64,000 nucleotides of DNA, taken from the NCBI GenBank assembly GCA_001464695.1, contig LNDQ01000091.1, forward strand, positions 1 through 64,000, in the 5' to 3' direction. Made by a program: the position numbers and the translations under genes. Within the stretch, counting starts at the first letter, position 1; every line of letters begins with the position of its first letter. The notes beneath the pieces are model-generated. The model saw only the letters and a list, made by a program, of their open reading frames with translations. It ran no database searches and was not told where the DNA came from. Shown one piece after another: positions 54,246 to 64,000 of the stretch. The DNA comes from Betaproteobacteria bacterium Ga0077523 (GTDB taxonomy: Bacteria; Pseudomonadota; Gammaproteobacteria; Burkholderiales; Ga0077523).

Positions 54246-55418
54246 TCAACGAAACTCGTGCAGGGCCACGCGGTTCTTCGCGATGAAATCCCAGTCATAG
54301 GTCACACCCAGGCCCGGCCCGGTGGGTACCGTGAAACAGCCGTCGTCGCCGACCGCTTCGAGAGCGTCGCTGTAGCCGCAGGTATAGACCGGCGGGACCG
54401 CATTGGGCATGTCCGGCCCCACCAGCGCAATCTCGTAGTAGTTGCTGTTGCGCATTGCTGCCATGCAATGCCGGTGTGCAGGGCCACACGCGTGCACCTC
54501 GGCATCGACACCGAAACCTTCGGCGATGTGGGCGATCTTCATCGCGCCCGTGATGCCCATGTCGTATTCCGGATCCACGCGCAGGAAGTCGGTGGCGTTG
54601 GCGATGAGGAAATCCGCCTTGGGCTCGACGCCGCGGATGTGTTCGGTCTGCAGGATCGGCGTGCGGATCATCTCGCGCAGCTTGCGGTGAGCGTATTGCG
54701 AAACGCCGCTGTCGCGGAACGGGTCTTCGTACCAGAAAAAATTGGCGTCGTCGCACGCGCGCCCGACGTACAGCGCGTCGGCAAAGGTCCGAAGCTCGCA
54801 GGCCGGATCGATCATCAGTTCCATGGTGTCGCCCACCACTTTGCGTGCGTGCAGGACGTTCGCCGCTTCCTTGCGTTTGTCGCCTTCGTGCCAGCCGTGG
54901 ATCTTGAACGCGGTGTAACCCAGCTCGCGGCATGCGAGCGCAAAGTCGCCGAAGGCTTCCTTCGAATCCAGGCCACCGGAATGCTGGGCGTGATAGGTGC
55001 TGGCATACGCCGGCAGGCGCCACCGGTAGCCTCCCAGCAACTCGGCCACGGAAGCGCCGTACTTCTTGCCGGCCAGATCCCACAGCGCGATATCCAGCGG
55101 ACCATGCCCCATGTGATCGAACTGTCGCGACTCACGCTTGAGGTCGTCGTAGATCGCTTCGCGCTGCTCGGCTTCGCGCCCGACCAGGAACGGGGCCAGC
55201 ATGATGGTGGAGCCGAGAGCAGCCGCGGAACCGACCCAGTGGGTGACGTATTCGCCGCGCAGGCCGTTGTCGGTCATCACCGCGACCGCGTATTTGGTGA
55301 GGCGGGTCTTGGCACCCTTCACGTACTCGAGTGCGCCGACGCTGGCGGCGCGGGTCATGCCGAGGTTGGCGGCGTCGAACTGGAATACGTGGACCTCGAC
55401 CTTGGTGATGCGGCTCAT
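54246..55418 (-). CDS. Enolase-superfamily enzyme, mandelate racemase subgroup (KxH type)
   Basis: A 390-residue enzyme. Catalytic pair Lys172-Ile-His174 (AFKIHGW), metal ligands Asp204, Glu231 (WYEDP) and Glu259 (QTEHI), His309 (EVHACG) and Glu329. The KxH motif marks a different branch from the KxK and KxR enzymes at 8999 and 23628. Likely an acid-sugar dehydratase or epimerase. The start at 55418 is chosen as the family N-terminus (MSRITKVEVHVFQF); the upstream frame is Arg/Ala-rich noise. Single-gene transcript by position. Confidence 0.87.
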   Translation of the reverse strand: MSRITKVEVHVFQFDAANLGMTRAASVGALEYVKGAKTRLTKYAVAVMTDNGLRGEYVTHWVGSAAALGSTIMLAPFLVGREAEQREAIYDDLKRESRQFDHMGHGPLDIALWDLAGKKYGASVAELLGGYRWRLPAYASTYHAQHSGGLDSKEAFGDFALACRELGYTAFKIHGWHEGDKRKEAANVLHARKVVGDTMELMIDPACELRTFADALYVGRACDDANFFWYEDPFRDSGVSQYAHRKLREMIRTPILQTEHIRGVEPKADFLIANATDFLRVDPEYDMGITGAMKIAHIAEGFGVDAEVHACGPAHRHCMAAMRNSNYYEIALVGPDMPNAVPPVYTCGYSDALEAVGDDGCFTVPTGPGLGVTYDWDFIAKNRVALHEFR

Positions 55419-55507
55419 GCTTGAAGTCTCCTCACCCACTTGTTTTGAGGGGAGAAGGATAGCATTCGCCCCAAGGGCGATACCCGCCAGCGCGCGAGCC
55501 CTTGCCC

Positions 55508-55547
55508 GGAAAAAGAGCCCCGGCCGCCGCAAGCGGCTTGCCGGGGC
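55508..55547 (-). terminator. Rho-independent terminator of the exported protein gene at 55584
   Basis: GC-rich stem GCCCCGGC.../...GCCGGGGC (55517-55547) with an inner GCCGC/GCGGC continuation, followed on the minus strand by a T-run (55508-55514). It lies 36 bp beyond the stop of the 55584-56030 gene. Confidence 0.7.
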
Positions 55548-55583
55548 AGCCTCTCCAAGCAGGGAGAGGGGGGAGGAGTCGAC

Positions 55584-56030
55584 CTACTTCTTCTCTGGAT
55601 GGTTCGCGATCTGCACGGAATCGATCTGTTTTGCGATCGGGGGCTCCGAGCCGCCAGGACCGCCGCGCACAACCTTCGGGGCTTCGTGGCCGGTGATGCA
55701 TGCATCGCGAACCTGGCACGGCTTGGCGCTGGCGAAGTTGCGCGAGCCGACGGTGCGCGTCACTACGTAGACGTCATCCGGCGCGCCTCCGGTGCCCCAG
55801 CGCATTTCGCCGACATACTCCCGCGCCTTGACCGGTCCATTGTCGCGATAGTCGGCGTACTTGCCGGGGTCGGCGCTGCAGGTGTCGCGGGTGTCGCAGG
55901 AATTGCTCCAGCGCGAGGTCGGTTCGCCAGCGCCAACCGGCTGGGAAAGGCACGTGACGACGCCTATGGCGACCGCCGCGAACGACAACTGAATCGCGGA
56001 ACCGTCGAATTGCTGTGTGAACACTTTCAT
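55584..56030 (-). CDS. Small exported Cys-containing protein of unknown function
   Basis: A 148-residue exported protein. Signal-like N-terminus (to about residue 33, QPVGAGEP), then about 115 residues with four cysteines (SNSCDTRDTCS; KPCQVRDAC) that could form two disulfides. A Pro/Gly-rich C-terminal part follows. No family recognised. AGGAGG ribosome site 9 nt before the ATG. Followed by its own terminator. Confidence 0.7.
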   Translation of the reverse strand: MKVFTQQFDGSAIQLSFAAVAIGVVTCLSQPVGAGEPTSRWSNSCDTRDTCSADPGKYADYRDNGPVKAREYVGEMRWGTGGAPDDVYVVTRTVGSRNFASAKPCQVRDACITGHEAPKVVRGGPGGSEPPIAKQIDSVQIANHPEKK

Positions 56031-56289
56031 GCTGGCCTCCTGAACCTTGGCTACCCGGACGTCGTCGACCCTCGTGGGATCGCGGCGCCACGATCCCGGG
56101 TTGAGGTCGCGACACCGTCACGCAGCGCGGCTGCGCGATCCGATCGCCGAATCGCCGCCTACCTTGCTGCACGTGCCGACAGTCTGCGATCCCGGTGCTG
56201 TCCAGTCTCTTCACCAAGAGGCATAGGCCGATGCTCATATCCGCTCCGGGGCCCAAGAGCGATGACTCCGGATCGCCCCCCGATCGGGG

Positions 56290-56808
56290 TCAGCGAGTGG
56301 GGTGGCGCTTCTGGTCGACAAACTCCTGCAGATACAGTCCTGCAGGGGTCTTCGTCTTGCCGAAGCGCTCACTTGCGCGTTCGAGGATCGGGGCACTCGT
56401 TTCGCTCGGGTAGGCGGCGATCGCGGCCGCGGCGCGAATCCTGACCCGCGTTATGCGATTTGCCAGTTCCATGCTTACGTAGTCCTCTTCCGAAACAAGG
56501 GGCCCACTCACGACCAGATCCGGGTTCTCCTGGTAGAACATCGCCATTTTCCGGTATGCAGTCTCCAGGGCTGGGCGATACTGCGCCGCGATCTCCGTAT
56601 CGAGCGCCGTCAGTACCTCGTCGAAGCAAAGCGCCAGATCCTCGCTGGCAACGAGCGCATCGAGCGCAGACGAGTCGCATTCCTCGCAGTGCAGCCACGC
56701 ACGAAACGCATCGCCTACTTCCGGACGGTTCACGAAAGTGCAATCGGCTGCACCGACTTGGGTCGAAAGCATCGCAAACAGAAGCACCACCGACAAGAAG
56801 CGATTCAC
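56290..56808 (-). CDS. Exported helical protein of unknown function
   Basis: A 172-residue exported protein: signal peptide to about residue 20, then a helical domain with three cysteines near the start (ADCTFVNRP; LHCEECDSS). HEAT-like stretches follow (LALCFDEVLTALDTEIAAQY; RITRVRIRAAAAIAAYPSE). No family recognised. It lies 37 bp downstream of the metallopeptidase gene on the same strand and may be coexpressed. Confidence 0.7.
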   Translation of the reverse strand: MNRFLSVVLLFAMLSTQVGAADCTFVNRPEVGDAFRAWLHCEECDSSALDALVASEDLALCFDEVLTALDTEIAAQYRPALETAYRKMAMFYQENPDLVVSGPLVSEEDYVSMELANRITRVRIRAAAAIAAYPSETSAPILERASERFGKTKTPAGLYLQEFVDQKRHPTR

Positions 56809-56845
56809 GATCGTCTCCTCCTTGAAGCTGCATTCATGGCGGCCT

Positions 56846-57904
56846 TCACCGGCATCCGTCGGAGCTCAGGTCGATCGGCGGACAAGGGAACTCGATACCG
56901 TCGTCACACCATTCCCCCTCTTTGTTGCGACCCGATGCGATCCATGAAATCTTGCGGAAATGCATACGGATACATTGACCGAGTTCAAAACGCTCTCTCG
57001 GATCGTCGGAGAGATCGGCGTCGGGGTGCATCACGTTCTTGGTGCAACTGTCACCCGCACAGATCATATGGCCCAGCGCCAGGGCATGGCCGATCTCGTG
57101 CGCGAGGGTTTCGGCATTGGTGGATTTTGCATACACCAGGATGATCCCGCGATTCCCGTCCGGGGTAGTCAGTTCGATCCAATTCCCGCGGCGAGCCGGA
57201 TCCGCTGGATCCCTCAACACGTAGTAGACGTTCAGGCTTCCTGTTTCATATCTTCCAAGAGGCGGCTTCATCAATGCACTTGCCGTCGCTTGACCCCACT
57301 CCAGGCGATTGCCCAGATCGAGTTCCTCCTTCACCTGCAGCTTGATCTCGATGCCGCAACCCTTCCTCTCGTTCAACAACTCCACCGCTCGATTCACATC
57401 GAGGTCTACCCGGCTCTTCATCGTCCCCGCGGATGGCTGCACATCCTTCGCCATCCAGACCTTTAGTTTCAACGTTGGTCTGTTCTTCAGTGATACCCCC
57501 ATAGAGTCGCGCCCGTCGCGCCAGCCTGGCCCATCTTCGCCATCGAGAGGCATCGTATTGCTGCCTACCCCTTTCCTCACGGCAAGCGCGAATATCTGTG
57601 AGTGACCGCATGGCGCTCGTCGGGCACCCAGTTCCGGAGAAACGTCAATCGGTCCAGGCCCCATGACAGCCCGGATCTGATGGCTGCAGACGCAAGCACC
57701 ACCGGATGCTCGTTGGCGCCGACTGATCACGAGAGTCGCCTCGTCCGTTTCCGACAGTTGGGGAATCGTCACCGCATCGGTCACGTTCTGGGCATTGGAA
57801 TTCGGCATGGACAGCCCTGCGATCAACAGCGTGGCCCACTTCAACCCGGCGACGCCCATCCGATTGGCATGTCTACACTGCGCGTCCGGTGTTAGCATTT
57901 CCAT
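56846..57904 (-). CDS. Exported zinc metallopeptidase (metzincin-like)
   Basis: A 352-residue protein with HEIGHALALGH at 269-279, an extended HExxHxxGxxH zinc site with Glu270 as base, and a Met-turn candidate Met292 (NVMHP) at the spacing expected for metzincins. The N-terminus has a hydrophobic segment (WATLLIAGLSMP) after about 22 residues, so export uses a long n-region or starts at the second Met. Several cysteines suggest disulfides. AAGGA precedes the ATG at 57904. Two further exported genes follow on the same strand. Divergent from the response-regulator gene 77 bp away. Confidence 0.82.
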   Translation of the reverse strand: MEMLTPDAQCRHANRMGVAGLKWATLLIAGLSMPNSNAQNVTDAVTIPQLSETDEATLVISRRQRASGGACVCSHQIRAVMGPGPIDVSPELGARRAPCGHSQIFALAVRKGVGSNTMPLDGEDGPGWRDGRDSMGVSLKNRPTLKLKVWMAKDVQPSAGTMKSRVDLDVNRAVELLNERKGCGIEIKLQVKEELDLGNRLEWGQATASALMKPPLGRYETGSLNVYYVLRDPADPARRGNWIELTTPDGNRGIILVYAKSTNAETLAHEIGHALALGHMICAGDSCTKNVMHPDADLSDDPRERFELGQCIRMHFRKISWIASGRNKEGEWCDDGIEFPCPPIDLSSDGCR

Positions 57905-57981
57905 CTTGATTCATCCTTGATGGCGGTAAGGTTCAGGAAGTCCCGCGCGGCAGTAACGGCGGATCCAGGGGGCAATGCTCG

Positions 57982-58695
57982 ATGCGCGTGATCGCGATCG
58001 AAGATCATCGGCTGGTGTACGACGCACTCGAAGCCGTCGTTCGCCTGATCGATCCCAATTGCGAACTGCGGTTCGCAGCGACGCTCGCGGACGCCCTGGC
58101 GGCGATCGAATCCGACGGGCCGCCCGATCTCGTGCTCATGGACCTCGGCTTGCCCGATTCCCAGGGGCTCGCCACCTTGCGACGCTTCCGAGAATGTCAT
58201 TCTGATGTGCCCGTGGTCGTGATCTCCGGCACCGACGAGCAGGACGAGGGGTTCCAGGGAATCGTCTTCGACGCGATCAACGAGCATCGCGCCATGGGAT
58301 ACATCCCGAAGAGCCATGACCGTGACCGCGGGTTGACGGCCTTGCGTCATGTCCTCGCCGGTAACGTCTATCTCCCTCGCGAAGCGGTTCATCAGGCCGC
58401 CGAAAGTCGTCGCACCGCACTCAGTCGAGCCACCGATGAGCCCATCGTCGTCCACCCTGTGGAGGTCTCCGACGCATTGCGCAAACAGGGCTTCACGGAA
58501 GCCCGGGCGCGGGTGGCCCGCCTGTTGCTCGAAGGCCTGTCCAACAAGGAAATCGCCCGCAAGCTGTCGATCACCGAACACACCGTCAAAGCGCACGCCA
58601 GCCATATCTTCGAGACATTGAACGTGAAAACCCGGTTGCAGGCAGTGGTCAGACTGGAACGCCTGATGAGCGAGGTGACGCGATCCCGAAGTTGA
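57982..58695 (+). CDS. Orphan NarL/LuxR-family response regulator
   Basis: A 237-residue regulator: receiver domain with phospho-acceptor Asp54 (VLMDLGLPDSQG), acidic pair in IEDHR, Ser82 and Lys110 (YIPKS). A LuxR-type helix-turn-helix follows (about 170-230, LLEGLSNKEIARKLSITEHT and VKAHASHIFETLNV). No histidine kinase is adjacent, so the partner is elsewhere. Divergent from the exported metallopeptidase, it may control that cluster. The start codon has GATGCG rather than a strong ribosome site nearby. Confidence 0.9.
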   Translation: MRVIAIEDHRLVYDALEAVVRLIDPNCELRFAATLADALAAIESDGPPDLVLMDLGLPDSQGLATLRRFRECHSDVPVVVISGTDEQDEGFQGIVFDAINEHRAMGYIPKSHDRDRGLTALRHVLAGNVYLPREAVHQAAESRRTALSRATDEPIVVHPVEVSDALRKQGFTEARARVARLLLEGLSNKEIARKLSITEHTVKAHASHIFETLNVKTRLQAVVRLERLMSEVTRSRS

Positions 58696-58706
58696 TTGCG
58701 GGCGAC

Positions 58707-61700
58707 TCATGGCAGCAGGAACGTCCGGCGCGACAGCGGCTTTGCACGGTTCCCCGCGTCGAATGTCCTGACCACGATCCGCCATCCTTGTGTCCTTCGA
58801 TGTACCGAGATGCGCGAGTAACCCCCGTCGTGGAACCCCTGCTCTCCATCGACCTCGACGAAGTCGAGCGCCTGGTAGGTCAAACGATTGCCGTTCGGGG
58901 TGACGACCGCTGTCCGTTCCGCGTAGTCCGCTCGTCTTCCGTTTGCGAAAGGAATCGGTGCATAGAACGGAGAAGCGCTGATGCCAATGGCGCGCACGGA
59001 AGTTTGCGGGTTGTCCGCGGAACGAAACTCCAACCCCACCGTCATGGAGCAATGCGAGTCACCGCTCAGGAAAACCACATTGCGGATCTCGTCGGTAGCG
59101 ATGACATCGATGACTTCGTTCAGCGAACCGAAGTAGCCCCCCCAACCGTCTTCGCGGCGGCGATAGGCCTTTTGTCGATCGGCGCCGTCCCGAGTCAGAG
59201 GCGCCAGTACGCTTCCCGACACTACGAACTTCGGACGATCGTCATTTCTCTGGCTCTTCAGCCAGGCGATCAGCGCCTCGTGACCCTTCGCCGCAATGCG
59301 ATAGTTGCGTGTACCGGTGTCGATGTTCCTGGACTCTCGCGACGTGCGACTGTCGAGGCAGAAGAATCGGAACCCTCCCGCGGCGAACTCGTAGCTGAAG
59401 TCCGCTGGCGGAACCCGGGGCTTCACCGGTCCGAGCCGGCCCACGGAGGCCTGATAAACGGAATAGGCTAGCCGCGCCCAGGCTTCCCGCGAGACTTCGA
59501 CAATGTTCAACGGATCCGTGATGCCATCGTGGGTTGGTTCGAAGTTGTCCCAGAGTTCGTGATCATCGATGGCAAAGTAGACCGGTAGATTGCCGGTGAG
59601 GGTCGCAAACGCCTGGCTACTCCATGCCTTCTGATAGCGGCTCACGACGCGCGAACGCGCCGACTCCGTGTCGAGGACGCCCGCGGTCGCATCGGCATAG
59701 ATCTGGTCCCCGATCATCAAGACCATGCCGACCGGATCACCCGCCGCCATGCGCTCGTGCATCCGCAGGAAAGGCCGATCGGCCCGTTCGTTCTCGAACA
59801 TCGTCCCCGGGTAGCGGCAGGAACCGATCAGGAATGCGAGGCGGTCGCTGTTCGACCCGAGGGCGTTCAAGTGATCCGGATTCGGCGTGGTCAGGTTGTC
59901 GACAATGCGGTGAGCCTCGAGCGCGCTGAAAGCATCCTTGATCAGGGCGAAAGTCAGTGGCTGCTCAGGCTTGTGGCCGCCCGGACGGAATGTACCGAGC
60001 GCCGTTTCCTTCAGGGGATCGACGTACTCGCGCTCGTCCGCCCCCCCGTCGGCCACACCGATCGCGAAGACCGGCAGGTGCAGGCTGCCCACCCAGAGGG
60101 ACTTTCCGATGAGCCGATCCACCGGCACGTCGGCGATGGCGTAAGTGGTCAACGAGATCTCCTTGCGCTCGCCTCGGTCGGTGCGCACTTCCCAGCTGGT
60201 CCACACGCCGATCAAGTCCCCCGAGGGCTTGCTATCGGGGGCACCTTCGTCCACTGCGAACACGACCCCATACTTCGGTGGATCGGTCTCGGTCGTATCG
60301 ATTTCCCACCAGATTCGCACATAGACACCGGGAACGACACCTGCAGTGAATACCGGCCTCGTCCAGCCCAGGACAGGGCCCCGAACAGCAGGCTTCAGGG
60401 TCGGGACCTCGCCAGGCCCGGGATCCTGTGAGATGAGGTTGCTCGTCAGAAAGCGGTCCACCCACGGGTACACTTCACGATGCGCGTCGCAGCCGAGCCA
60501 CAGGTCGAGATGCCCGAAATCCTGTTTGACCACACACAAATGGGTACGTCCGCCCTGCACCTGCGATATGCGCGCAAAGTTCCTTCGAGACGTCTCGGGA
60601 TCGAACACATCGCTGCGCTTGCCATGCAGGAACGCGATCGGAAAGGTCATGTATTTCTCGATCGAGTGGTCCAGGAAATACTCGTTGATGCCCCCTTCGA
60701 ATACGACACGACCGCGTTGCACGAAATCGGTGATCTGCCGAAAGGTCTTCATGTTGGCCGCACCGAGCAGGCCGCCCATCGCCTCATGGGTGCGCCGATC
60801 GATATTGCCATGGGGCCAATTCTGGCCGTAGACGGCCGTGATTCGATGACACGTGGCGAGATCCGTTCGAGGTGGACAGGGCAGCACGGCATCGTGTGCA
60901 CGGCCTTCCGAGAGCTCGACCGGATATGTGGCCGCGATACGGTCGGCGAGGATCGGCAACCAGTCCTTGGTCTGATGGGCCGACACATCGATGTGGTCGA
61001 GTCCCACCACGTCTTCGAGAAACGCGGCGAGTTCCGCCCGCAGTTGGTTCGACGATGATCCGACGATGAAGGGACCGATCTGGCTCATCACGGCAGCGCG
61101 AATCCATTTTCCGGAATCGAACTCGCCCAGCAGGACACCCATACTGAACACCGCTGCGCCCATGCAATGCGCCAGGACGTCCACCTGCTCGCTGCCGGTC
61201 AGTTCGAGAATTCTCTTGACGGCACGGGGCAGATCGTAGCTCGCGACTTCGTCGAAGGACCACTGGTGTCGGCACGAGTCGAGGGCAGTGCTGGTTCGCA
61301 ACTCAACCAGCCAGACGTCGAATCCGCACTCGCACAAGTGTTTCACCAGACATCGCTCCAGCGTGGGTGAGGTGAAGATCGCACATGAATGCGCAAAGCC
61401 GTGCGTGACTACCAGCGGAACGAGCTTACTGTCGCGGTGAGCCGGATCCCAGTAGTGGGACACCAGCAACCTGACGTCGTCGGCCGTGGTGATCCAGTGC
61501 TGCTCCGGTCCGACTACGCCCGCGACTGGCCCCGGGCGTTGGAGTTTTTCCACGGGTTCCGGCGGGTAGTCAGGCGCGCGAAAATGCCAGAGATAGGTCT
61601 TGATGACGAGACGTGCGACGAACAACGCCAGAGCGGCAAGCGCAGTCCATCCCGCCATTGCATGGGGCTGCTTCTCGATCTGCGGCGGTCGGTTGCGCAC

Positions 61701-64000
61701 TGCGTCGAGAAAATTCATCGTGACCCGACCCGAAGCGGGACACCGCGTGCCGGACCGATGCTTCACCACGACGTCGAGATCCACAAGCGAACGCCAGACG
61801 TTGATGCCCTCGGCGAATGCGATGGTCTTGCGGCCAAGCAGCACATATTCCACGTTGTCGCGCCCGCGAAACGCGAGCTCGTAGGTCATGTAGCGCCGTT
61901 CACCCGCGTGGGCGGCAAGTTTTATCAATGACCACGACCGCCTTGCTATCTCGATGATGCGCTCGCCCGCGGGCTTGTCCTTCGATTCGGAACAGTTGAT
62001 CTCCCGGCACGCTTCTTCCTCACCACGGAGTTTCCACCAGTAGCGGATCGCCCTGACGATGCGACACAGGATGGGATCATGGTCGCGATGCAGCATGGCG
62101 ATCGAGCCTTCGACGTCGATCTTGCCGCCGCTGCGCACGGTCGACGGTGGAGATGGACCTTCGAGCAATCTGGAGTCTGCGCCGCCACCGGGATCGTTAT
62201 GCCAATGCACCTCGTCACCCGGATTCGACGGTGTCACCTCGACCACGAACATCTTCCCAGTAACAGGGAAGCGTCGATCCTCTTCTTGCAGCGATGCGAT
62301 TACGTCCCGAACGGGGAACTCGAGTTCCAGTTCGAGGTGTATCTGTTCTGGATTGCAGCCGCCTTCGTACTTCGCAGGGTCACCGAGCCACCGGCCTAGT
62401 CGGGTTTCCCAACCGCGTGCGGGCTCGCTGCGACATCTGGGCTCCGTCCGGAAAGGCCGGTCGTCGCCACGGACACTCCCCACCAGTTTCTCCCGCAGGC
62501 GCACATCCACCGATTCGTCTTCGCGAGCCCGATACGGCGGCCCGACGTCCGGAACCGGCGGAAGTGGGTCGCCCGCCTTGCCGTAGTCGATGACCCAACC
62601 GCGGGCCGTCGCCAACGCCCTTACGTTACGTTCTGCCAGCGCCGTGATCGTGAGCAACGGATTGATGGCCAACGCCGATGGAACGATGGCGCCGTCCATG
62701 ACGTAGAGTCCTTCGTGGACGCTTGTGGAGGTGCGTGTGTCGAACACCTGGCCCCAATGATTCACCACACCGGTGGTGCACTCGTCCGCCATGCGACATC
62801 CGCCCAAGGGGTGGACAGTTACCAGACTGCCCCGCGGCGATGGTCCGGACAGTACGCTGGACATCGAGTCCGGCAAGGGCTTCCAGATGGGGTTCGGAAT
62901 CGGGATGCCGCCCAGATTGCGTGCGGCATCGAGGATGTTCTCTACGGCCTGATACACCGCCTGGTCGCCGACGCCCTCCCATTTCACTTGCATCGTTCCT
63001 TCAACATCGTCACCTTGCTTGCCGAATTCGAGGCGGCCGGCCGCGTCGTCGTGACCCATGATGAGAAACACTTGGGTGCGCTCCATGGCCTGCCGGCTGA
63101 TGGCGAGGGGATCGGTGCTTCGGCCTATGCGATCGCCCTTGAGACGGAACGAGGACAGTTGCGCGAGCATGCCCGAAGTCGTGAGCAGCTCGCCGGCAAG
63201 ATGCGCCAGCGGCCCGGGAATCGCGCCATCTTCGATGACCACCCGCTGGTCGGGGCAGGTTGCATCGCGCAGGTCGATGATTCCTGCCGCCATCGGTCCG
63301 ACCACTGGATCTGGCCGCCGATCCGGGCCCGCGCTGCCCCAGCCGATGGCATTGACGGGCGCGTCCTGATCGTAGCCGAACGCAAGCGTGTCACCATTGC
63401 AGCTGAACCCTGCGCCCAATTGGTCGGAGGCCTTGATCAAGCCCCTGCGCTTCGAGCGCAGCAGGATCTCGGTACTACCGAACGAGCCGGCGGCGAGAAT
63501 GACCGTATCGGCCCGGAGTGTGCGAACTTTGCGGTAGCTGCTGTCGTTTTGGCGTGCGGTGGGCCGGAAATTGACCAGCCACCGACGGTTCCGAGCCACC
63601 GTAAGCACACTGACGCCCGTGTACAGGCTGGCACCGTGTGCCCTGGCATCGGGCAGGTAGTTCATGGTGAGTGTGTTCTTCGCCCAGAAGTTGCACCCGG
63701 AACAACAATCTCCGCACTGGCGACAGGGTTGCTGGGGAGCGAGCGCCGCCGTTACCGGCGTGATTCCAGGCTGACGAATGGCGACACCCAGTGGACGACA
63801 ACGCGTCCTGTCATCGGTACCGTCCACCGCAATCTCGCGATTCAGCTTGCGCAACGCCGTCAGCTTCTGCGGGGCGGGCGTGCGCTCGTACGCTGATACA
63901 CCGAGCATTTCTCGAGCGAGCTGGTAGTCGTCTTTCAGAAAGTGTGGTCGATGCCGGATGAATGACGGCCAAGGGGGGCTGGCAAACACCTCCGGCCGCG
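58707..64000 (-). CDS. Three-enzyme fusion: GMC oxidoreductase, alpha/beta hydrolase, PhoD-like phosphoesterase (5' end beyond window)
   Basis: One uninterrupted frame of over 1,760 residues; no start codon is needed at 63989 because the frame stays open to the edge. Part 1 (about 1-470 of the visible chain) is a GMC flavoprotein of the cholesterol oxidase-like group: PCRQCGDCCSGCNFWAKNTL, VILAAGSFGST, VHPLGGCRM and NPLLTITALAERN; its FAD-binding start is off the edge. A roughly 350-residue linker follows. Part 2 (about 830-1185) is an alpha/beta hydrolase with Cys942 as nucleophile (LAHCMGAA) and His1160. Part 3 (about 1380-1755) is PhoD-like: GDQIYADA, AIDDHELW and SGDSHCSMT. Combined redox, acyl and phosphoester chemistry on one lipid or sterol is plausible, but inferred. 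Confidence 0.9.
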   Translation of the reverse strand, partial: RPEVFASPPWPSFIRHRPHFLKDDYQLAREMLGVSAYERTPAPQKLTALRKLNREIAVDGTDDRTRCRPLGVAIRQPGITPVTAALAPQQPCRQCGDCCSGCNFWAKNTLTMNYLPDARAHGASLYTGVSVLTVARNRRWLVNFRPTARQNDSSYRKVRTLRADTVILAAGSFGSTEILLRSKRRGLIKASDQLGAGFSCNGDTLAFGYDQDAPVNAIGWGSAGPDRRPDPVVGPMAAGIIDLRDATCPDQRVVIEDGAIPGPLAHLAGELLTTSGMLAQLSSFRLKGDRIGRSTDPLAISRQAMERTQVFLIMGHDDAAGRLEFGKQGDDVEGTMQVKWEGVGDQAVYQAVENILDAARNLGGIPIPNPIWKPLPDSMSSVLSGPSPRGSLVTVHPLGGCRMADECTTGVVNHWGQVFDTRTSTSVHEGLYVMDGAIVPSALAINPLLTITALAERNVRALATARGWVIDYGKAGDPLPPVPDVGPPYRAREDESVDVRLREKLVGSVRGDDRPFRTEPRCRSEPARGWETRLGRWLGDPAKYEGGCNPEQIHLELELEFPVRDVIASLQEEDRRFPVTGKMFVVEVTPSNPGDEVHWHNDPGGGADSRLLEGPSPPSTVRSGGKIDVEGSIAMLHRDHDPILCRIVRAIRYWWKLRGEEEACREINCSESKDKPAGERIIEIARRSWSLIKLAAHAGERRYMTYELAFRGRDNVEYVLLGRKTIAFAEGINVWRSLVDLDVVVKHRSGTRCPASGRVTMNFLDAVRNRPPQIEKQPHAMAGWTALAALALFVARLVIKTYLWHFRAPDYPPEPVEKLQRPGPVAGVVGPEQHWITTADDVRLLVSHYWDPAHRDSKLVPLVVTHGFAHSCAIFTSPTLERCLVKHLCECGFDVWLVELRTSTALDSCRHQWSFDEVASYDLPRAVKRILELTGSEQVDVLAHCMGAAVFSMGVLLGEFDSGKWIRAAVMSQIGPFIVGSSSNQLRAELAAFLEDVVGLDHIDVSAHQTKDWLPILADRIAATYPVELSEGRAHDAVLPCPPRTDLATCHRITAVYGQNWPHGNIDRRTHEAMGGLLGAANMKTFRQITDFVQRGRVVFEGGINEYFLDHSIEKYMTFPIAFLHGKRSDVFDPETSRRNFARISQVQGGRTHLCVVKQDFGHLDLWLGCDAHREVYPWVDRFLTSNLISQDPGPGEVPTLKPAVRGPVLGWTRPVFTAGVVPGVYVRIWWEIDTTETDPPKYGVVFAVDEGAPDSKPSGDLIGVWTSWEVRTDRGERKEISLTTYAIADVPVDRLIGKSLWVGSLHLPVFAIGVADGGADEREYVDPLKETALGTFRPGGHKPEQPLTFALIKDAFSALEAHRIVDNLTTPNPDHLNALGSNSDRLAFLIGSCRYPGTMFENERADRPFLRMHERMAAGDPVGMVLMIGDQIYADATAGVLDTESARSRVVSRYQKAWSSQAFATLTGNLPVYFAIDDHELWDNFEPTHDGITDPLNIVEVSREAWARLAYSVYQASVGRLGPVKPRVPPADFSYEFAAGGFRFFCLDSRTSRESRNIDTGTRNYRIAAKGHEALIAWLKSQRNDDRPKFVVSGSVLAPLTRDGADRQKAYRRREDGWGGYFGSLNEVIDVIATDEIRNVVFLSGDSHCSMTVGLEFRSADNPQTSVRAIGISASPFYAPIPFANGRRADYAERTAVVTPNGNRLTYQALDFVEVDGEQGFHDGGYSRISVHRRTQGWRIVVRTFDAGNRAKPLSRRTFLLP

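Follow-up and report, generated by a model that had tools for sequence, protein, structure and literature searches.

Is the very long open reading frame (ORF) that reaches the right edge of the 64,000-nucleotide stretch analyzed here (the window; contig LNDQ01000091.1 of Betaproteobacteria bacterium Ga0077523, positions 1 to 64,000) a genuine three-enzyme protein, and if so, what could such a protein do? Within the window, the frame occupies 58707-63989 of the minus strand, amounts to 1,760 codons and is open at the edge, and an initial annotation had proposed a fusion of three catalytic modules in a single frame of at least that length: a GMC flavoenzyme, a hydrolase with a cysteine nucleophile and a PhoD-like phosphoesterase. 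Followed rightward along its 116,345-base contig, the frame runs on to an ATG at 64379 without any internal stop, which provides the N-terminus and brings the whole protein to 1,890 amino acids (aa). The three-module fusion is real, and its parts have been located as follows (L-numbers denote retrieved loci, L002 being the window's contig region, and G-numbers the relatives' genomes).

58707..64000 within the window (stop codon 58707-58709, ATG at 64379), minus strand: fusion ORF, 1,890 aa (L002:1708-7380, minus)
62550..64000 within the window, ending at 64379, minus strand: GMC flavoenzyme module, about residues 1-610, from Pfam and conservation
61680..62522, minus strand: linker module, residues 620-900, from the alignment and the split genes of G151
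61587..61667, minus strand: hydrophobic helix, residues 905-931, a possible membrane contact
60420..61472, minus strand: alpha/beta-hydrolase module, about residues 970-1320, Pfam Abhydrolase_1
59850..60362, minus strand: segment that separates the hydrolase from the PhoD core, residues 1340-1510, whose position suggests the PhoD module's N-terminal domain
58710..59849, minus strand: PhoD-like phosphoesterase core, residues 1511-1890, Pfam PF09423

The order GMC_oxred_N, GMC_oxred_C, Abhydrolase_1 and PhoD has been recovered with Pfam at residues 32-309, 520-582, 988-1077 and 1537-1807, with 38.8 bits (cut-off 23), 46.3 bits (24.6), 34.9 bits (25.8) and, for PF09423, 71.1 bits (27), so that all four domains lie above their gathering scores; together with the conserved motifs described below, this bears out the three catalytic modules. 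As a check on chance ORFs, the longest frame on the opposite strand has been found to reach only 393 aa. The same order is kept in relatives with 28-37% overall identity (alignments of 8 and of 17 proteins), and intact single-ORF versions have been read in Betaproteobacteria SG8_39 (L003, 1,862 aa), in G055, G118, G175, G032 and G210 of the window's order (probably Burkholderiales), in Polaromonas sp. AET17H-212 (L004, 1,824 aa), in G1064 and G1079 from other orders of the window's class, and on two Ensifer plasmids (L064, protein WP_205239617.1, and L066). As 12 intact versions (the window and 11 further ones) have been read, the fusion is not an assembly join; neither a frameshift nor a consistent occurrence of three separate genes in the relatives, either of which would speak against it, has been found. 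Three further loci have not been counted as intact, namely Ensifer canadensis L065 (whose GMC part does not share the frame of the remainder), G964 (L082, PhoD end in another frame) and G271 (cut by contig ends). With the window fusion as query, 21 of 300 genomes in the order, 15 of 398 in the phylum and 14 of 369 in the class have been matched, where the genome samples overlap and most matches are two-module or GMC-only relatives. The Ensifer fusion has matched 3 of 289 genomes in the class of G353, and no further fusion has been found among these 289; a plasmid search has returned 29 records, of which the seven that cover at least 80% of the query are all from Ensifer (three opened).

The reading that we favor, although we give it slightly less than an even chance, is that of one regulated polypeptide that catalyzes several steps on a lipophilic alcohol bearing acyl and phosphate groups. 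The PhoD module, or another metallophosphoesterase in its place, would cut a phosphoester of the substrate, the Cys hydrolase would cleave or transfer an acyl chain via a thioester intermediate, and the GMC module would oxidize the exposed hydroxyl, with electrons passing from FAD over an iron-sulfur (Fe-S) cluster to a carrier and not to O2. A beta-barrel linker and the hydrophobic helix might hold the greasy intermediate or the membrane, and a kinase encoded next door would turn the gene on upon the substrate or a related membrane signal. Fe-S binding, acyl-thioester chemistry, a shared substrate and the order of the steps are what we infer here.

The evidence for the oxidative step comes from the following sites of the GMC module.

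64260-64277, outside the window, minus strand: FAD loop GSGYGG
63693..63725, minus strand: CRQCGDCCSGC, a ferredoxin-type CxxCxxCxxxC motif (C219, C222, C225, C229), probable Fe-S site
62796-62819, minus strand: catalytic-type His in TVHPLGGC
62646-62672, minus strand: Asn in LAINPLLTI, partner of the catalytic-type His

GMC enzymes carry a His/Asn pair according to PMC6719666, and the corresponding pair H523/N573 has been found invariant across 18 GMC modules, as have G35, S36, G37 and G39 of the FAD loop. The four-Cys motif is present in all 18 of these modules and in 43/43 distinct GMC ORFs from all loci that pass a three-motif filter (FAD loop, HPxGG and NPxxT; only passing ORFs have been judged, some of them cut by locus ends and one with Ala for Gly). 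A profile built from 14 of the 18 Cys-motif segments has found its best matches in ferredoxin-type 4Fe-4S proteins, which for so short a pattern is not proof, and no cholesterol oxidase appears among the best 60 of its 154 matches. In the FAD glucose dehydrogenase BcGDH, the 3Fe-4S ligands are Cys212, Cys218 and Cys222 according to the same study, and C219, C225 and C229 reproduce their spacing of 6 and 4, a correspondence by spacing and not by residue alignment to 6a2u. The motif is thus a probable Fe-S cluster site, and this spacing makes a dehydrogenase likelier than an oxidase. When the GMC profile has been compared with solved structures, FAD glucose dehydrogenase has scored best after the cholesterol oxidases, which are nearest. 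The alpha subunit of that dehydrogenase (6a2u) shares with the fusion the combination of GMC fold and Cys cluster, whereas the fusion adds a fourth Cys, and neither a gamma nor a cytochrome subunit has been noticed beside it. From cholesterol oxidases of the GMC type (1coy, 1b4v; NF058674), which it resembles in sequence family, FAD loop and His/Asn pair, the fusion differs in its four-Cys motif, in its linkage to two hydrolases and in its NCBIfam score, which lies below the family cut-off.

Since cholesterol oxidases are the nearest solved GMC enzymes, and a cholesteryl-ester hydrolase is the nearest solved structure of the hydrolase module, the protein could instead belong to sterol or steryl-ester catabolism, with the GMC module as cholesterol oxidase or dehydrogenase, the hydrolase deacylating the sterol and PhoD acting on co-ingested phospholipid. 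The cholesterol oxidase model NF058674 does top the NCBIfam scores of the fusion, but at 149.5 bits against a cut-off of 850, the remaining families scoring lower; strong 3-ketosteroid dehydrogenase near-matches of 430-448 bits occur in G055 and G175, yet NF005882 exceeds its cut-off of 788 in 0/10 genomes with fused or split genes. Sterol as a general substrate has consequently not been borne out, and we consider this explanation unlikely; as the test covers one marker and some of the genomes are incomplete, it does no more than make such a general role less likely. The same scores bear on phospholipid recycling, in which PhoD would have phospholipase D activity, the hydrolase would have phospholipase A activity, and the freed head-group alcohol, choline for instance, would be oxidized by the GMC module. 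Choline dehydrogenase does belong to the GMC superfamily, but its model gives 25.5 bits (cut-off 605) against the 149.5 bits of cholesterol oxidase, which leaves this explanation a slim chance. Directly downstream of two-module GMC-hydrolase genes, RoxA-like cytochrome c proteins have been observed in G425 (L053:8209-10140) and G099 (L054:2564-4684), which are possible electron partners.

For the acyl step, the relevant positions of the hydrolase module are these.

61152-61178, minus strand: nucleophile elbow VLAHCMGAA with Cys1072
60606-60626, minus strand: acid position, Ser1256
60501-60521, minus strand: His1290

The cysteine that the initial annotation had recognized in the elbow (LAHCMGAA) has held up. 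Cys1072, His1290 and Asp1292 are invariant in the alignments, Cys and His in 17/17 hydrolases, and G151, G754 and G623, whose hydrolases are separate, keep the Cys as well. Asn occupies the acid position in 16 of the 17 and Ser in the window protein; this aligned position is presumably the one where alpha/beta-hydrolases usually carry the acid. A distant hydrolase relative in G615 (L041:1498-2670) has Gly at the nucleophile position (AHGVGA) and may for this reason be catalytically dead. Among solved structures, lysosomal acid lipase (6v7n, E 7e-7) and gastric lipase (1hlg, E 8e-6) are nearest and alike in the core around the elbow, whereas the fusion hydrolases have Cys for the Ser nucleophile and Asn or Ser at the acid position. 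The Cys nucleophile also fits an acyl-transfer or polymer enzyme, in which a PHA-synthase-like acyltransferase would esterify the product of the other modules. Weak matches to class III PHA synthase (TIGR01836, 22.7 bits) and to PHB polymerase structures (E 0.0067) point the same way, but the former stands against a cut-off of 365.3 bits and the sequence is nearer to acid lipases, so that we regard acyl transfer as rather improbable.

The third module carries four PhoD motifs.

59808-59825, minus strand: GSCRYP
59694-59714, minus strand: IGDQIYA
59553-59570, minus strand: IDDHEL
59049-59066, minus strand: SGDSHC

Of the metal-site motifs, GDQ[IV]Y and DDHE have been found in 18/18 PhoD modules, all of which had been cut around a GD[QH][IV]Y match, and [SC]GDxH in 15/18, the pattern being unmatched in G238 and G754 (TGDIH by eye in the latter); the Tyr of C-x-Y is replaced by Trp or His in four fusions. 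With GDQIY, DDHE, GDxH and C-x-Y, the module resembles the PhoD phosphodiesterases (B. subtilis PhoD, 2yeq; S. chromofuscus phospholipase D), while it differs from solved PhoDs in being a weak match (E 0.0074) and the C-terminal part of a larger chain. The NCBIfam model for bacterial alkaline phosphatase PhoD, NF058638, has not been matched (20.3 bits against a cut-off of 1000). According to PMC4223295, the family is exemplified by a phosphodiesterase and by a phospholipase D.

Does the phosphoesterase belong functionally to the other two modules? Two-module GMC-hydrolase proteins (e.g., Azospirillum oryzae WP_149201188.1) have the same core, Fe-S motif and Cys nucleophile, whereas the fusion carries PhoD; some of the two-module genes adjoin another metallophosphoesterase gene. 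This has been surveyed at 19 non-fused core loci with fetched flanks, core loci outside the survey including G188, Rhizobium, Leptospira, Persicobacter and Bernardetia. A PhoD gene adjoins the core on the same strand in 5/19: with a 4-base overlap in G097, a 31-base gap in G353 and a 4-base overlap in G238, as one of three separate consecutive genes for GMC, hydrolase and PhoD in G754, and 55 bases downstream in G1119, whose PhoD is weak (22.5 against 27 bits, with GDQ[IV]Y and DDHE), the other four lying above the cut-off. The hydrolase of G097 goes unreported by Pfam at E 0.001 and is visible in the alignment. A calcineurin-type enzyme, type A, adjoins the core in three loci (Variovorax, G1172, G1264; Variovorax against the others 33-35% identity), and one of a second family, type B, in another three (Azospirillum, G1157, G531; 34-40% identity), where that of Azospirillum is annotated as metallophosphoesterase and reaches 19.5 bits against a Pfam cut-off of 21.5, that of G531 is divergently transcribed and also below the cut-off, and G1157 has GMC and hydrolase as separate genes. 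By eye, an LpxH-like enzyme adjoins the core in one locus (G013, L052:4576-5439), next to a glycosyltransferase; this adjacency may be chance. As genomes hold 3 to 15 calcineurin-type enzymes (15 searched), rough arithmetic puts chance adjacency at about 1% per locus.

Because the PhoDs of G238 and G754 diverge from that of the window (17% and 32% identity), the coupling to a phosphoesterase has probably arisen more than once. In a quick GMC-module tree, the fused forms group with G097, G353 and G271 (support 0.93), opposite the other forms (0.99); support is weak at several inner nodes, and in the hydrolase tree the fused forms do not all stay together. That different phosphoesterase families recur beside one core points to a shared reaction and not only to co-expression. 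It lends indirect support to the claim of the initial annotation that the modules act on one substrate; the sequence of steps that it had proposed has gained none. The contrary explanation is a fusion of convenience, in which three co-regulated enzymes of one regulon with different substrates have been joined for stoichiometry. That separate neighboring genes occur makes the one-chain linkage non-essential and agrees with this explanation, but the recurrent adjacency of different phosphoesterase families to the same core does not, and we hold it to be improbable.

The term regulated in our preferred reading refers to two neighbors and the site that they share with the fusion.

64475-66367, beyond the window, minus strand: membrane hybrid histidine kinase, 95 bases upstream of the fusion (L002:7476-9368, minus)
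57982..58695, plus strand: LuxR-type response regulator that converges on the fusion, the stop codons lying 11 bases apart
54246-64000, on to about 66400: site of variable content within the genus, flanked by an enolase-superfamily gene and CRP/LuxR-type regulators (L091-L097)

Of the 13 lineages in the PhoD-fused clade that could be tested (Ensifer counted once; L003 and G964 left out for contig ends), 11 have by Pfam a membrane hybrid histidine kinase next to the gene: the window, G055, G118, G175, G032 (divergent), G210, G097, Polaromonas, G1064, G1079 and G271. These kinases match that of the window over most of their length at 31-42% identity, and kinases likewise adjoin the two-module genes of G1172, G1264 and G255. 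With 16 to 70 HisKA domains per genome (12 searched), a neighboring kinase would be expected by chance at roughly 1-3% of loci, again by rough arithmetic. A regulator homologous to that at 57982-58695 lies near the gene in nine of the 11 kinase-adjoined lineages and has not been seen in G032 and G1079; in the window, kinase and regulator are likely partners. As its relatives usually adjoin a sensor kinase, the fusion looks like a regulated multi-step enzyme. In G353 and Ensifer, an AAA/guanylate-cyclase protein takes the kinase place; the proteins, AAA_16 plus guanylate cyclase, are divergent from the core at G353 L051:10386-14465 and Ensifer L064:3606-7616 and L066:3602-7615, and at Ensifer L065 no ORF of at least 500 aa has been found there.

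The three genes for kinase, fusion and regulator make up a cassette, and the site where it stands varies within the genus. In the window's family, here one genus, the fusion is present in 2/12 genomes. That of G118 has the same flanks, with 93% identity for the enolase-family gene, 91% for an LpxH-like gene and 80% for the next gene, whereas the cassettes share only 37% (kinase), 32% (fusion) and 34% (regulator). The enolase-family gene occurs in 8/12 genomes, and the six without fusion have been opened: the flanking genes are present and the cassette absent in G193 and G224, and also in G075, where they stand close together; other genes, some signaling-like by eye, take the site in G157 (enolase-family gene 94% identical) and G254; and on a short contig of G672, regulator and enolase-family gene are adjacent. 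That two such divergent cassettes occupy one site points to separate arrival or to replacement, the alternative being rapid divergence in place. A bolder and distinctly doubtful proposal is that of a self-contained lipid-response cassette that moves horizontally. In it, membrane kinase and LuxR-type regulator would accompany a three-enzyme protein by which the kinase's own lipid ligand is made or destroyed, and the phosphoesterase slot of the GMC(Fe-S)/Cys-hydrolase core would have been taken on separate occasions by PhoD and by two or more other metallophosphoesterase families.

Several points weigh against a single regulated multi-step enzyme. No phosphoesterase has been seen in the flanks of 7/19 non-fused core loci (G425, G099, G255, G015, G978, a second copy in G1079, and G151), and no kinase has been found by motif beside the cores of G238 and G754, where PhoD is adjacent and which lie outside the fused clade. 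No substrate-specific pathway gene has been recognized beside the fusion. The acid position of the window hydrolase, being Ser, is neither Asn nor Asp, and the Polaromonas fusion has one PhoD motif with GG for GD. PhoD proteins are described as extra-cytoplasmic in PMC4223295, whereas in the fusion PhoD lies C-terminally in a chain whose first domain is GMC. Finally, two AlphaFold2 models built on three-sequence alignments, the first of the Polaromonas relative, have mean predicted local distance difference test (pLDDT) scores of 38.6 and 33.5, too poor for active sites.

The best blocks of the first model are strands of the linker (pLDDT up to 84) and a few residues by the flavin loop (70-73). 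Fold comparison, which covers this model, has matched its residues 625-819 to GID4 and designed beta-barrels (8x7g, Z 10.3, 4.2 Å, 120 residues), and the linker is tentatively a calycin-like beta-barrel. In G151, whose genes are split, it sits on the separate hydrolase ORF and not on the GMC ORF. The membrane-like helix that had been annotated near residues 780-800 is present as a hydrophobic stretch spanning residues 908-926 of the full-length protein (earlier numbering about 778-796; mean Kyte-Doolittle (KD) value 1.95); its role in the membrane stands less well, as the top KD peak falls there in six of the 11 fusions examined and elsewhere in five, and it could be amphipathic instead.

If our preferred reading is true, this is a natural three-step enzyme on one chain with its own sensor, and, as different phosphoesterases have repeatedly been paired with its core, several Proteobacteria would be predicted to handle a phosphorylated lipophilic alcohol. 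If the Fe-S motif binds a cluster, this part of the cholesterol-oxidase-like GMC proteins would become dehydrogenases that feed an electron carrier. Annotation is also at stake, since two such proteins are recorded as 'alpha/beta fold hydrolase'; the Fe-S-type Cys motif, the kinase and the regulator go beyond the initial annotation. Titles and abstracts in the literature have yielded no paper on a fusion of these three modules or on clusters that combine GMC with a metallophosphoesterase, which is weak evidence of absence as subscription papers fall mostly outside this scope.

A role in anti-phage defense has been rejected, the one PADLOC match (17 bits) covering the flavin loop only. Beside the response regulator, window 56846-57904 gives weak M66- and reprolysin-like metalloprotease matches, both below the Pfam cut-offs, and is unmatched in the locus of G118. 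At L002:9567-10601 and L002:11572-12711, two related regulators have been observed that, by eye, combine LuxR-type DNA-binding and cyclic-nucleotide-binding parts.
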